Origin: Allochromatium vinosum DSM 180
Lineage (GTDB): Bacteria; Pseudomonadota; Gammaproteobacteria; Chromatiales; Chromatiaceae
NCBI RefSeq assembly: GCF_000025485.1
Contig: NC_013851.1
Coordinates: 2,709,501 to 2,773,500 of the forward strand
Reading direction: 5' to 3'
Length of the DNA stretch: 64,000 bases
Every line of letters begins with the position of its first letter. The stretch's first letter is position 1. This document shows positions 14,709 to 22,710 of this stretch, in pieces. The notes under the pieces were generated by a model, which saw nothing but the letters and a program-made list of their open reading frames with translations, was not told where the DNA came from and made no database searches. Position numbers and translations under genes: made by a program.

Positions 14709-15105
14709 GGGCCGGTGGCTGGCGCTGGGTCGGTGCCTGATCGCGTTGGCGGTCATCCCCATTCGGACGCTGGCGACCGCCACCAGGGCGCGCGCTCTTG
14801 GCGGTCACGACTGATTCGGCCAGCAGCGTCCAGGACTCGCGCTCGGTGCCGTCCTTGCCGGTGTACCGGCCTCGGGTCAGCTTGCCGATGGCGGCGACCA
14901 TCTGCCCTTTCTCGGCTCTCAGCAGCGCCTCGCACTGGTGCCCGAAGGCCATCAGCGAGACCCACAGCGTTTCGGCGTCGCCATCCTCGGTGCGCTGGCC
15001 CGTGACATCCACAGCTACGGACGCCAACGCCATCGGCTTCCCGGTGCGCGTGGTCTTCTCGGTCGGATCGGCAGACAACCTGCCGTAGATGTTGCCGATC
15101 AGCAT
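14680..15105 (-). CDS. ssb: Single-stranded DNA-binding protein of the element
   Basis: OB-fold SSB of 141 residues starting MLIGNIYGRLSADPTEKTT. The disordered Gly/Arg/Gln-rich tail ends in DFHDSIPF, the acidic tip that recruits replication partners. It is shorter than chromosomal SSBs and lies directly after the primase operon, so it probably coats single-stranded DNA during element replication. The start at 15105 is set by homology of the N-terminus; it overlaps the preceding gene by 7 bp. Confidence 0.88.
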   Translation of the reverse strand: MLIGNIYGRLSADPTEKTTRTGKPMALASVAVDVTGQRTEDGDAETLWVSLMAFGHQCEALLRAEKGQMVAAIGKLTRGRYTGKDGTERESWTLLAESVVTAKSARPGGGRQRPNGDDRQRDQAPTQRQPPAHDFHDSIPF

Positions 15106-15899
15106 GGGGTGATCTCCTGAAATCGCGTGCAGTGAATTTCGGCATCGGGCCACGGCCACAGCGAGCCGGGGCGCTTGGAGGCAGGCGCGGCGATGGTGCA
15201 GTGTCCGAGACCACCAGGGGGATTGATCCGGTCTGGCGTCCAGTGGGCACAGCGGGCACAGACAGCCTTGACGGTGGTCTCGATGCCGGTGTCCGGCTGC
15301 GTGGCCTGATCGTCCGGCCAGTCGGCCAGTCCCATCTTCACCACGTCCTCATAGAGTCCGCGCAGTTGCTCCGGGTCGCGCGCCAGTCCCTCGACGAACT
15401 CGCGCCGGGCCTGCGCGTCGTCTTCGCCGATGTGGTCGAGCCATGCGTGGATGACAGCCAGCGTCGTCGGGGCGATCGGGCGGGCCGGTCGATCCGGCCT
15501 GGGTGTGAGGCGGGCGCCGGGATAGCGGGCCTGGACCTCGGCGAGCGAGAGCGGCGGGCAGAACATCGAACTGAACCGCTCGCCGGTCGGTAGGGTTATC
15601 AGCCAAGTGTGATGGCGCTCGACTCCTGCATTGGCGGTTACGCCAGTTACACCAGAAACCTCGATTTCAATAGTCCGCCGTTGGCGGTTTTCGTCAACGG
15701 ATAGGCGACCCATGGCGCTTGGCGCGCAAGCCTTCAGCGGTGCATCGTCGGTTTTCGTCTCCCCTTTGCTGTTTTCGGCGTAACCGACGTAACCGGCGTA
15801 ACCTTCAGCAACGGCGCGGCCTGGAGCGGTTACGTCAGTCGATATGCTCGACGTAACCGGCGTAACCGCGCGGCGTTGGAGCAGTGCAGCCAGACTCAT
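15099..15899 (-). CDS. Element protein of unknown function, 266 aa, with VTxVT repeats
   Basis: N-terminal 60 residues are low complexity with VTPVTSS and GYAGYVGYAE stretches encoded by iterated GTAACC/GGTTAC units. The C-terminus holds a possible zinc site CARCAHWTPDRINPPGGLGHC, given here as CxxC...C spacing, and a further Cys near the end (HCTRF). The start overlaps the primase stop as ATGA. I do not recognise the family; position and coupling suggest a role in replication. Confidence 0.65.
   Translation of the reverse strand: MSLAALLQRRAVTPVTSSISTDVTAPGRAVAEGYAGYVGYAENSKGETKTDDAPLKACAPSAMGRLSVDENRQRRTIEIEVSGVTGVTANAGVERHHTWLITLPTGERFSSMFCPPLSLAEVQARYPGARLTPRPDRPARPIAPTTLAVIHAWLDHIGEDDAQARREFVEGLARDPEQLRGLYEDVVKMGLADWPDDQATQPDTGIETTVKAVCARCAHWTPDRINPPGGLGHCTIAAPASKRPGSLWPWPDAEIHCTRFQEITPC
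15635..15868. repeat. Iterated GTTACG units, cluster 1
   Basis: GGTTAC or its complement GTAACC recurs at 15635, 15778-15803 (three tandem 9-bp units), 15828 and 15851-15868 (two units), in both orientations, inside the 5' half of the 266-aa gene. A second cluster is at 17602-17694. Confidence 0.7.
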
Positions 15900-18800
15900 A
15901 GCAAGTCATCCTCCCGGGGTGCGATGGCATAGAGCCGCTGACTTCGCCCTTGGGCGTTCGTCACCTTGGATCGCTCGCCGGGGTCGCGCTCGGCGATCCA
16001 GCCGCTTGAGTCCAGCGCCTCCAGGATGCGCCGCTGATCGAAACCGCCTGCCGCCTCCTTCAGTCCGGCCGGGGTGAACAGATAGATGCGCTCGTCCTCT
16101 CGCTCTCGCCACCAGCCCGCCCGGTCGCGCACGCTGATTTCGAGGCCGTCATCCCGCAGCGGGTGCAGCGGCGAGAACCGGGCGTCTCCGTGGCGCGCGA
16201 TGAAATCAGCGACGGCGCGCAGGATTTGCCGGGTCTCGGTCTGGCCCTTGCCGCGATGGTCGCGCCAGAGCCGGAACGCCAGGGCGGCGGCGTCCAGGGC
16301 TTCGCCTTCCGACCAGGGCACGAGGCCCCACTCGATCGCCAGCTCTCCGGCCATCGCGATCAGGGCAAACGCATTGGCCGCGCGCCCCTCGATGCCGGTC
16401 TCGGCGGCGAACTCCGGCAGCGCGGCGACTCGGGCCAGGGTCTCGCCAAGATCACGGTCATCGGCAATCAGCCGCTCGACGAACGCCGGTCCGGCGTGGC
16501 CATGATGGCGATTGACCGCCGTCTTGAGTGTGTCGGTCAGGGCGCGGCCGCCGTCAAACCCATGCAGCGCATCGAATACGCCGTGCTGGCGCGTGCAGGG
16601 GATGTCGAGCAACCGGGCCTCCTGTCCGGCCTTGGCGCGCTTGCCGCCTTCCTCCATCGTGGCAATCAAGGTGCGCTCGCCGGATGACAGCAGCACCACG
16701 CGCCAGCGTTTGACCGCGCGCGCTCCACCTGTCCGGGCCGCGCGGCTCTTGCCGGTGCCGTTGCCCACGCTGTAGACGATCGCGCCCACTTCGCGCGGAT
16801 CGGCCTCGCTGATCTCGTCGAGAATGAGCGCGGTGTCATTGAGCATGGCGGCGGTGCCCTCGATGCCGTTGGACGTGGCCCTCCAGGTGCGGATAAAGCC
16901 CGATCCGCCCCAGCAGGACGCGGCCAGCGCCAGCAACGTCGATTTGCCGATGCTCGAATCTCCCCAGAAATGCAGCCCGCAGCCGGTGCGGTGAACACGC
17001 GCCAGCAGGGGACCGGCTAGCGCCGCAGCGACGGCCAGGATGAGCATGGGATTCCCAGCGCAGCGCGCGGCGATCTCAGCGCGCCAGCCGTCGAAGGTGC
17101 CGGCCTGGACGAACTCATCATGGTCGGCGGTCTCGGACTGATAGCGGACGTTGCCCTCGCCGATGATGCGATGCGGCAGGACGAAGACCTTGCCCTCTCC
17201 GTGCCAGCCGGTGCAGGTGGCCGCCATCACGCGCACCTTCGGGTAGCGGCTCATGAGGTACTGATTGAGCAGCCGGTGTGAAGTTGGATCGATGCGCACA
17301 CCCAGCGCCAGCAATTCCCCGCGCAGCTCTTCGCCCGACCCGCGCAGCAGGTGCATCGGCATCGCCCACTCGCGTTCGCGTCCAAGTGCGTTCTTGAACC
17401 GCAGCAGCAATCCGAAGTCCGCGTCTCGATCGCCATGCGTGATGGCCTCGGCATAGAGCGGGGTGCAGATCCATTGATCGATGTCGGTCAGCTCGTCGCC
17501 TTTCTCCTTGGTCGAGTGCCACCAGACGCCCGGCTTACCGTAGCCCGTCCAGTCCTCGTGAACCGCGAAGCCAGGACGCTTGACCGCCGGTTTCGGGAGT
17601 CGGGTTACGTCGGTTACGTCAGCTTTTTCGGTGGCGTAACCGCTGGAAGCCGCGTCGTTACTGGGGGTTACGTCAGTTACGCCAGTTACGTCGAATTCGG
17701 TAAGGGGCGAAACAAAATCGGCGATGGCGCCCGTGATGACAGTCCGCGCAACCTCGATACCGGCCGTCTGGTGCAGGTCGTTGAAGTCGGTCAGGTCAGC
17801 CGGTGCGGACGGCTCGATCAGGGGGAAGATCAGCGGCAACGGCGGACGGAACTTCCATGCCGCCTTCACAGCCGCCTCGATCGGTTCGACCGGATCGGTT
17901 GGAGCGGTGCGCTTCCTGAGATCGGCGGCGAGGATGACGGCCTTCTCGGGATGCGCGGTCTTCAGTTGGGCGGCGGTCTTGTCGAAGTTGCCGACCGAAC
18001 CGGACGCGGCCACGGGGTAGCCCGTCGCCTCCAGGATCGATAGCGCCGTCGCGACACCCTCGGCGACGAGGATGGTGTGGTCATCCTCGGCGACAGGACG
18101 CGCCAGCCAGAATGCGCGCTGCTTCGTGCCCCTGCCAGGGAGCGAATACTTGAGGCTGGCGCCGTCGATCAGCTCGACCGTGGTCAGCTCGCCATCACGC
18201 CGGTAGGGGACCACCAGGACGACGCCTTGCAGCTGTTGGCGGGTGCCGTCTTTCTCGGCTGTCGGGTGACGGCCGGTGATGCGGGTCACGGCCTCGACCG
18301 CGATTTGCCGCAGGGTGTCCGTGGCCTGGACGCCTTTTCGACTGAGGTACGGATTCGGCGCCTCGGCGGTGATGATCTCAGCGGCTTCCCATATCTGCGA
18401 GGCATGGCGCGCGGTCTGTTGCTGTTGCTCCTGCTCGCGCTGGCGCTCGGCGGCGGCTTCCTGCTCGCGCTTGGCCATCAGGGCCGGGTCAGGCGGCGGA
18501 AGGCCGGATAGCTCGTCGATGCCGAAATAGCTGGCGACCTTGAGGAACGCCTCGCCAGCCGACCAGCCGTAGACGTGCGACAGCAGCGCGAAGCCGTCGC
18601 CAGCCTGGGTGTCGCCACCACCGCCACAGACCCATGTTCCCCGGTCCTTGTCGTTGTCGAAGCGGAACCGATCGGTGCCGCCACAGCCAGGGCAAGGGCC
18701 GTGATGGTCGCGCAGGTGGTCGCGCTCGATCCCGAAGTGAACCAGGATCTCCGGCCAGTGACCGCGTGCGCGCTCGGCCAACCCATCCAGGTCGCGCTTG

Positions 18801-19474
18801 CGCTGCTCATAGCAGTCCCGGCAGAGAACCGCCGTGGGTGCGGCCTTGGGCGGATGGAAGGATGCGCCGCAGGTGGTGCAGGCGCGCTTGCCCTCGTCGG
18901 GTGAGAAGCACGCCAACTCGACCGGCTCTTGCTGGTGCTCATATTCGGCCAGCCGTTCGAGATCGGTCTGAAGATCCGAATCGGCCTCCAGCTCGGCAGC
19001 CCGCGCGGTGATCTCGGCGCCCTGGGCGATGGCCTCGGCGAGGTCGAACGGGGCCGGATCGGCGACGGAGTTATCCACAGACGCCTCGAACATATCCGCC
19101 GTCTCCCTGCAACGGCGCGGATCGGTGACGGTCTCACGCTCCGACTGTGGATAACTTTCACCCTCAGCGAGATCCTGGAGCGCGCGCCATTGCTCGGCGC
19201 TGAGCGTCTTCCCCCGGTATCCGGTCTTGGCGTGCGAGAAGTTTTGCTTCTTCATGCCGATGGCGTCTGCAATTGCAGCCTCGGACAGGGCGTCGCGGGC
19301 CTTGATGGTCTCGACCAAGGCACGGATGGCCTCGGGTGTGGGCGGCGCGATCGGCTCAGGCGGCTCCAGCTCGAACGCGGGCGCCTGGGCCTGGATCGAA
19401 GCACGGACCTCGGCTGGCAGCCGATCAGGATCGACAACGGGAGCCGTGGCCCCCTGGGGAGTTGGGGCGTTCAT
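15896..19474 (-). CDS. Multidomain primase-helicase (zinc fingers, TOPRIM, DUF927)
   Basis: Replication protein of 1192 residues. In order: a helix-turn-helix-like start (AIADAIGMKKQNFSHAK, about 67-83), a zinc ribbon (CTTCGASF...CRDC, about 198-222), a P4-primase-type zinc finger (CPGCGGTDRFRF ... WVCGGGG, about 262-290), a TOPRIM domain (ILVAEGVATALS, about 463 on), a linker with DVTxVT repeats, then a DUF927 ATPase domain with Walker A GDSSIGKST (about 836) and Walker B LILDEIS (about 880). The fourth Cys of the CHC2-like finger is Gly (CGGGG). It heads the coupled block primase-266aa-ssb and likely replicates the excised element. Confidence 0.88.
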   Translation of the reverse strand: MNAPTPQGATAPVVDPDRLPAEVRASIQAQAPAFELEPPEPIAPPTPEAIRALVETIKARDALSEAAIADAIGMKKQNFSHAKTGYRGKTLSAEQWRALQDLAEGESYPQSERETVTDPRRCRETADMFEASVDNSVADPAPFDLAEAIAQGAEITARAAELEADSDLQTDLERLAEYEHQQEPVELACFSPDEGKRACTTCGASFHPPKAAPTAVLCRDCYEQRKRDLDGLAERARGHWPEILVHFGIERDHLRDHHGPCPGCGGTDRFRFDNDKDRGTWVCGGGGDTQAGDGFALLSHVYGWSAGEAFLKVASYFGIDELSGLPPPDPALMAKREQEAAAERQREQEQQQQTARHASQIWEAAEIITAEAPNPYLSRKGVQATDTLRQIAVEAVTRITGRHPTAEKDGTRQQLQGVVLVVPYRRDGELTTVELIDGASLKYSLPGRGTKQRAFWLARPVAEDDHTILVAEGVATALSILEATGYPVAASGSVGNFDKTAAQLKTAHPEKAVILAADLRKRTAPTDPVEPIEAAVKAAWKFRPPLPLIFPLIEPSAPADLTDFNDLHQTAGIEVARTVITGAIADFVSPLTEFDVTGVTDVTPSNDAASSGYATEKADVTDVTRLPKPAVKRPGFAVHEDWTGYGKPGVWWHSTKEKGDELTDIDQWICTPLYAEAITHGDRDADFGLLLRFKNALGREREWAMPMHLLRGSGEELRGELLALGVRIDPTSHRLLNQYLMSRYPKVRVMAATCTGWHGEGKVFVLPHRIIGEGNVRYQSETADHDEFVQAGTFDGWRAEIAARCAGNPMLILAVAAALAGPLLARVHRTGCGLHFWGDSSIGKSTLLALAASCWGGSGFIRTWRATSNGIEGTAAMLNDTALILDEISEADPREVGAIVYSVGNGTGKSRAARTGGARAVKRWRVVLLSSGERTLIATMEEGGKRAKAGQEARLLDIPCTRQHGVFDALHGFDGGRALTDTLKTAVNRHHGHAGPAFVERLIADDRDLGETLARVAALPEFAAETGIEGRAANAFALIAMAGELAIEWGLVPWSEGEALDAAALAFRLWRDHRGKGQTETRQILRAVADFIARHGDARFSPLHPLRDDGLEISVRDRAGWWREREDERIYLFTPAGLKEAAGGFDQRRILEALDSSGWIAERDPGERSKVTNAQGRSQRLYAIAPREDDLL
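17602..17694. repeat. Iterated GTTACG units, cluster 2
   Basis: GGTTACGTCGGTTACGTCAG at 17602-17621, a reverse unit GCGTAACC near 17633, and three tandem units at 17666-17694. They encode the DVTDVT/DVTGVTDVT linker of the primase between its TOPRIM and DUF927 domains. Confidence 0.7.
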
Positions 19475-19689
19475 CGGACCTCCCGAACAAGCTCAAGATG
19501 GATGCGGTAGACAGCCGCCCGACCATCGTCGAACCGGACGCGGAACTCACCAGAGCGCGTGCGGCCTGGAATGGTCCCGGTCTGGACGTTGGTCTTGCGG
19601 ACGGCTTGAGCAGCGGCAGACGCCAGACGGGACGCGAGATCGGCAGCAGGAGCGGCGGGAACCGCCCCCTCCTTGGGGCGTGCTCTCAT
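19471..19689 (-). CDS. Small hypothetical element protein, 72 aa
   Basis: Ala-rich helical N-terminus, then a short beta-like stretch (FRVRFDDGRAAVYRIHLEL). Both ends overlap neighbours as ATGA, placing it in a coupled run ahead of the primase. No recognised family. Confidence 0.6.
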   Translation of the reverse strand: MRARPKEGAVPAAPAADLASRLASAAAQAVRKTNVQTGTIPGRTRSGEFRVRFDDGRAAVYRIHLELVREVR

Positions 19690-20039
19690 TGCCCTTCCCC
19701 CCGCCGAATCCCGGCCAGATCGCCGATCTCAAGGGCTTCGTCCAGGATGCGCTGTATGGCGTGGCTGGACGCCTGGATGCTGACCAGGAGCGCGCCAAGC
19801 GTCCCGCTGTTGATGTGGGCCGGGCAGTCGGCCGATTGCATGGCGTCGTTGAAGGCGCCGCCCAGCTCGGCCAGCTCAGCGATGGACCACGCGAAGTTGG
19901 TCAGGCGGTCGCCGTTGAAGGAGAGCATCCCGCCCATGCGGACCATCGCCAGCACTTCAGCCGGTGTGCCGTAGGGCTTCAGGAGGGTTTCGTAGCTGGT
20001 GCTGGGCTGTTCGCCAGCGGTGAAAGTTTCAGGCTTCAT
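19686..20039 (-). CDS. Hypothetical element protein, 117 aa
   Basis: Starts MKPETFTAGEQPSTSYETLL at ATG 20039; longer readings run through the promoter region. Helical and soluble, with no recognised domain. It is the first gene of the coupled primase operon, so it may be an early or regulatory product (inference). A perfect 7-bp inverted repeat lies 7 bp upstream of its start. Confidence 0.65.
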   Translation of the reverse strand: MKPETFTAGEQPSTSYETLLKPYGTPAEVLAMVRMGGMLSFNGDRLTNFAWSIAELAELGGAFNDAMQSADCPAHINSGTLGALLVSIQASSHAIQRILDEALEIGDLAGIRRGEGQ

Positions 20040-20045
20040 GGTTTT

Positions 20046-20069
20046 GGTTCTCGTTTCAAGTTGAGAACC
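20046..20069. promoter_or_regulatory. Inverted repeat before the primase operon
   Basis: GGTTCTC (20046-20052) and GAGAACC (20063-20069), 10-bp spacer, directly before the ATG at 20039. It could be an operator or an RNA hairpin over the ribosome site. A separate palindrome CACAGgtataCTGTG is at 20124-20138. Confidence 0.5.
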
Positions 20070-22661: not shown

Positions 22662-22710
22662 CTGACTTTTAATCAGGTGGTCGCTGGTTCGAGTCCAGCA
22701 GGGCGCACCA
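22662..22710 (+). repeat. Attachment site (right): partial tRNA-Lys copy
   Basis: 49 bp identical to 13115-13163, from the anticodon stem through CCA. No 5' tRNA half precedes it, so it is not a functional tRNA gene. Confidence 0.93.

Follow-up and report, generated by a model that had tools for sequence, protein, structure and literature searches.

Iteron-like repeats within coding sequence on both sides of a DUF927 helicase region in Allochromatium vinosum: a candidate split origin

Results

An integrated element with a DUF927 primase-helicase

The window analysed here is a stretch of 64,000 nucleotides from Allochromatium vinosum DSM 180. It contains an integrated element of 9.55 kb, bounded by 49-bp copies of the 3' end of tRNA-Lys (Table 1). 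The start of P0002 overlaps the stop of the primase-helicase gene P0001 (ATGA). P0002 gave no match in Pfam, PHROGs or NCBIfam, and tblastn (E<=0.01) matched it in nine of 105 other helicase loci, including two duplicate pairs. Scans against PHROGs and NCBIfam revealed little in the further ORFs of the element beyond the SSB, the integrase and the helicase. Gram-negative PICIs have an integrase and AlpA beside the replication genes. Here an integrase is present, and no AlpA match was found among the window ORFs scanned, which covered the small ORFs in part. The PICI label is therefore withheld for the element as a whole.

Table 1. Features of the element, in window coordinates
Feature	Start	End	Strand	Basis or remark
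tRNA-Lys	13088	13163		
att repeat, left copy (3' 49 bp of tRNA-Lys)	13115	13163	+	Exact direct repeat with 22662-22710
Single-strand DNA binding protein (SSB) gene	14680	15159	-	Pfam SSB E=8.9e-11; PHROG SSB
P0002, 266 aa	15099	15899	-	N-terminal linker carries downstream module
Outlying unit pair beyond downstream module	15636	15653	+	Second unit degenerate (GTTACA)
T-rich tract, outer edge of downstream module	15750	15776	.	Candidate melting site, inferred; read from sequence
Downstream iteron module	15777	15867	.	Three units, 24-bp spacer, one inverted unit, two units
P0001, 1192-aa Zn-ribbon / Toprim / DUF927 primase-helicase	15896	19474	-	Pfam
C-terminal winged-helix wing, P0001 residues 1154-1175	15950	16015	-	Unit-tracking scan and model secondary structure
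DUF927 match, P0001 residues 647-923	16706	17536	-	Pfam E=5e-89
Upstream iteron module in primase-helicase linker	17603	17692	.	Inverted copy of downstream module (inverted repeat I1)
Tyrosine integrase	21196	22473	-	Pfam Phage_integrase E=6.8e-23, Arm-DNA-bind_3
att repeat, right copy	22662	22710	+	49-bp exact direct repeat

At E<=0.001, Pfam assigned DUF927, Toprim_3 and Zn_Ribbon_Prim to P0001, and none of D5_N, Pox_D5 and DUF5906. The helicase part (residues 640-1192, the last 553) was modelled with an alignment of 68 sequences at a mean pLDDT of 92.8. The closest solved structures were 5dgk, which is SCCmec Cch (Z=30.0), and 8tch, which is SaPIBov1 Rep (Z=28.9), matched over model residues 4-548 and 2-552, respectively, and phmmer also linked the P0001 helicase to 8tch (E=5.3e-21). 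With these Z scores and its Pfam match, P0001 belongs to the DUF927 helicases with the fold of Cch and SaPIBov1 Rep. The C-terminus of P0001 appears winged-helix-like in the model by our own reading of the secondary structure.

GTTACG repeats in two clusters

The initial annotation had described GGTTACGYC units clustered in both orientations, and the counts bear this out. There are 13 GTTACG cores, seven at 15637-15866 and six at 17604-17690, starting at 15637, 15829, 17604, 17613, 17667, 17676 and 17685 on the plus strand and at 15779, 15788, 15797, 15852, 15861 and 17635 on the minus strand. As the 9-mer, the two clusters together hold 11 exact copies and two with one mismatch (AGTTACGCC and AGTTACGTC). 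The downstream module, at about +31 to +120 from the helicase stop and inside P0002, puts iterons just past the 3' end of the helicase gene. The spacer between the third and the inverted unit (15804-15827 and 17642-17665) looks alike in many loci, about CCAGYAACGGCGCGGGYTTC by eye, with a weaker consensus across loci when counted.

GTTACG occurs 14 times in the whole element, whereas 300 dinucleotide shuffles averaged 1.4 copies and never exceeded 5. The densest 95 nt hold six copies, a stretch in which these shuffles reached at most two. When any 6-mer is allowed, six non-overlapping copies per 95 nt barely exceed the best of 60 shuffles (five), hence the case against chance lies mainly in the two-cluster design and in the relatives described below.

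It had also been proposed that the repeats encode VT linkers. This holds for both proteins, though VT is not all that they encode. On translation of the minus strand, the units become VTGVTDVT and DVTDVT in P0001, with the inverted unit as GYA; in P0002 they become VTPVT, DVT and GVTGVT, along with GYAGYVGYA in another frame.

The exact window unit is rare, as three GTTACG units with a 9-bp period were found in one of 369 genomes of the class, namely the window's own. Of 47 viral contigs, some also carry GTTACG arrays in collagen-like GVTGVTG proteins. Such proteins are encoded by GTTACG-rich DNA at L043:462-2177, at L023:5502-7412 and in similar viral contigs. The arrays at L026:97-295, L033:654-796 and L048:2337-2535 begin in DNA without any ORF of 80 aa and enter the start of a 185-aa ORF (MTKTDVTDVTDVTGDVTTK). 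As the collagen-like proteins of viral contigs carry such arrays, a GTTACG array alone is not diagnostic, and we rejected it as the sole marker.

Split layout in related loci

Related loci were picked by similarity to the window helicase. Among 108 loci, window included, 106 had a helicase match (L133 and L134 did not), and removal of six near-copies and seven loci with too little flank left 93. To learn the unit of each locus, only the stretch from 30 nt ahead of the helicase stop to 300 nt past it was used. The unit threshold was passed by 67 of the 93 in the density comparison and by 68 in the layout counts, the difference being due to rounding, and the other 25, which gave no downstream unit at that threshold, are outside the layout counts. 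It should be noted that exact 6-mer calling misses degenerate units, and that unit or layout calls may err there; L146, L148, L191 and L195 fall under the threshold yet have five to seven upstream units.

The unit learned downstream was found at 6.93 per kb in the upstream window versus 0.38 elsewhere (67 loci), an 18-fold higher density. Out of 68 loci, window included, 39 were split, with at least three upstream units, while 26 had at most one and three had two. The inverted fit of the upstream to the downstream module was better than the direct fit in all 39 split loci. The repeats, their layout and inversion, the matching of units within a locus and the homology of the helicase were computed directly.

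The upstream module lies within the open frame of the helicase in 37 of the 39 split loci, and in 38 the downstream module falls inside an ORF of 80 aa or more that runs on the same strand as the helicase. Openness alone proves little, as the opposite strand is also open in 25 of the 39 downstream modules. Many of the downstream ORFs, read by eye, start at or near the helicase stop with a MGLDALL- or MSLAALL-like sequence, which makes them more credible as genes. Across the 39 split loci, the AT content of the first 10 bp outside the modules was on average 19-21 points above that of the locus, at the outer edges of both modules.

A quick helicase tree, in which several long branches were flagged, calls for 11 changes between the two layouts, of which eight or more fall on well-supported branches. 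Hence the layout has shifted repeatedly, keeping in mind that wrong layout calls would inflate the count.

Units and linker peptides change together

The unit core varies by locus (GTAAC, GTATC, GTTCC, GGAAC, GCTAC and others) and is common to both modules within a locus, and the linker peptide follows it (VT, GT, VS or VP). Matches in the upstream window came to 5.82 for the own unit and 0.234 for the different units of other loci, the own unit being strictly highest in 33 of 39. The own-unit value is partly selected, since the 39 split loci were defined by at least three own matches, and the 18-fold density above is therefore the fairer measure.

Codon usage agrees with this picture. Repeated linker dipeptides, chosen by peptide, use identical codons in 477 of 616 pairs versus 232 expected (35 loci), and GTA, which makes up 17 of the 609 valine codons of 13 window genes (P0001 included), is used for all five VT valines in the P0001 linker. 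Both tests are partly circular and hence weaker evidence, since DNA repeats were what the stretches had been selected by. A pooled count of 399 identical pairs out of 399 was discarded as fully circular, the units having been chosen as exact 6-mers.

The joint recoding of both halves in relatives points to the DNA, rather than the protein, as what has been preserved, which supports the earlier proposal that selection acts on the DNA, unit and peptide having changed together in both clusters. That proposal would not fit relatives that keep the VT peptide and lose the DNA array; what we found in relatives was the opposite, a layout that is kept and a peptide that varies.

Elements with a DUF3987 helicase

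The same genome carries a second element (L218:7844-11987; G000:C1:1957844-1961987) with a DUF3987 helicase and the unit GGGCGAA, of which one cluster lies in the linker and another downstream. Its P0003 has its first 41 residues in common with P0001, and the C-terminal end of its P0004 is identical to that of P0002. An element from the same genus (L217:7555-11668) also has a DUF3987 helicase, with a 94% identical primase N-terminus and the unit AACTGAC/GTCAGTT. Of 31 DUF3987-type loci sampled, L217 had no query match and L227 was too short, leaving 29; a strong downstream unit was present in 20 of these, and a clear linker cluster as well in L218 and L223 only.

Which part of the protein tracks the unit

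To find residues that follow the unit we scanned 46 related helicases, which form 62 same-unit pairs among 759, in windows of 10 residues. The effect of sharing a unit peaks at residues 1162-1171 (4.2 sd); the top six windows, which overlap each other, all fall within the wing (1154-1175), and the next is at 712-721 (2.4 sd). The label shuffles behind these values were run at a coarser window step than the scan itself and ignore ancestry, which is controlled by the comparison with the rest of the protein alone. Further, the windowed test was not the sole test, as it came after two rankings that failed to isolate the wing: by mutual information, four of the top six columns are in residues 1167-1189 and 20 of the top 30 in the helicase core, and by z-score three of the top 25 are in residues 1140-1185. 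A test on same-unit pairs gave p=7e-11, but as its pairs are not independent we place no weight on it. The wing of the C-terminal winged helix tracks the unit best and is a candidate reader of it.

The initial annotation had instead named the N-terminal HTH of the primase as the binder. The N-terminal 198 residues of P0001 are 94% identical in L217 and 60% identical in L218, where the units are AACTGAC and GGGCGAA. As these elements share the N-terminus and use other units, binding of the unit by the N-terminal HTH is disfavoured.

Discussion

Known counterparts

We file the layout as a putative variant of the SaPI/PICI-type iteron origin. SaPI Rep and SCCmec Cch share the helicase fold of P0001 over nearly its full length, and in SaPIs the iterons lie directly 3' of the helicase gene, as does the downstream module of the window. 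PMC10111431 places the origin downstream of pri. P0001 is nonetheless distant from both, with 19-20% identity in the structural alignments and 59 bits against NCBIfam Cch1 versus a cut-off of 700. Compared with SaPI and Cch, the window adds an inverted module upstream of the helicase domain, and both of its modules are within coding sequence. Gram-negative PICI origins, according to PMC6092414, have two iteron sets around an AT-rich region, adjoining the primase/helicase genes. The window likewise has two sets, but they flank the helicase coding region instead of an AT-rich one. Among the relatives that show the split layout, L143 and L156 have an integrase together with AlpA and are in this respect PICI-like.

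Phage P4 also has two separate iteron arrays, ori1 and crr, with crr just downstream of the alpha gene, and ori1 shows the same three-one-two orientation pattern as the window modules. P4 alpha and P0001 have the Zn-ribbon and Toprim_3 families in common. The helicase part of alpha, however, matches D5_N, Pox_D5 and DUF5906 whereas that of P0001 matches DUF927, hence P0001 is not of the alpha type; further, ori1 and crr are thousands of bp apart, and the spacings differ. P4p05, annotated in the P4 record (L216:4096-4431) as a small predicted ORF, overlaps the first crr repeat and may be a parallel to P0002.

The O protein of phage lambda we take to be of a family unrelated to the P0001 helicase. 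The lambda origin consists of a single array within one gene and next to an AT-rich region, while the window has two inverted modules in two genes. The lambda iterons lie within the initiator gene O, and additional iterons lengthen the protein by further amino acids, as described in PMC7466680.

A candidate split origin

We consider it probable that the units are the iterons of an origin of the SaPI/PICI kind, split around the helicase, placed inside coding sequence and bound by the C-terminal winged helix. We infer binding of the units, origin activity, a melting site and joint action of the modules. In this reading the DUF927 helicase would bind the units through its C-terminal winged-helix domain, and the origin would comprise two mirror-image modules, each of three units, a spacer, one inverted unit and two units, on either side of the helicase coding region. 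The modules are read through as protein linkers, at the primase-helicase joint in P0001 and near the start of P0002. Helicases on both modules would come together and melt adjacent DNA, perhaps at the T-rich outer edges, and load for replication after excision of the element.

An unlikely yet still serious alternative is that the downstream module alone is the origin and that the upstream copy is a control site, for handcuffing, copy number or autoregulation of the helicase. According to PMC7581432 and PMC6092414, such origins are placed downstream of the helicase gene, which would fit a downstream-only origin, as would the 26 of 68 loci with at most one upstream unit. Against it, downstream units are more numerous where the upstream module is absent (median 8 versus 6; Mann-Whitney p=0.0003, with related loci not independent), as if two modules were wanted somewhere, although this difference cannot separate an origin from a control role.

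We find it very improbable that the inverted modules are recombination sites for exchange of the helicase cassette. The element at L218 shares DNA with the window on both flanks, in blocks at 14782-15324 (91.5%), 18875-19125 (85%) and 19352-20053 (98.6%), and differs in between, with its DUF3987 helicase and other units. As the shared DNA stops on either side of the helicase and its modules, the cassette seems to have been exchanged as a unit. The blocks nevertheless end outside the modules, at window positions 15324 and 18875, and each of the two elements has units of its own; both points argue against the modules as the sites of exchange.

Most improbable of all, and rejected, is selection at the peptide level, with VT-rich linkers that matter and DNA repeats that follow: read by eye, the linkers for the most part stay in a single reading phase and show a recurring spacer peptide (such as SNDAAS or SNDGLS), and peptide-driven GVTGVTG repeats do exist in viral contigs, but mainly the change of peptide with unit and the prediction of the upstream array by the unit learned downstream of the helicase speak against it, along with the units that P0002 reads in another frame and, in agreement although partly circular, the codon counts.

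The split origin bound by the winged helix is the reading we retain. More tentatively, and short of calling it probable, we suggest that these are widespread elements in which the helicase is nested in a bipartite origin, with both halves translated and both needed, and in which some ten sites in two genes are repeatedly retargeted together with the wing.

Conclusions

Iterons inside coding sequence are already known from lambda, and SaPIs and PICIs are known to have iteron origins next to DUF927 helicases. Mirror-image modules that flank the helicase, lie in two genes and have units that vary between elements but agree within each were not described in the accessible portions of the literature searched, which was mostly without subscription papers. 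If the split origin is real, recognition of the origin by the helicase could be read from sequence, many unit codes and their cognate wings being already present in public genomes, and the loci would illustrate coding sequence evolving under a DNA-binding constraint. Candidate orthogonal replicons would also become available, and, if the helicase is indeed nested in its origin, these elements would make up a natural set of mutually orthogonal helicase-origin pairs.
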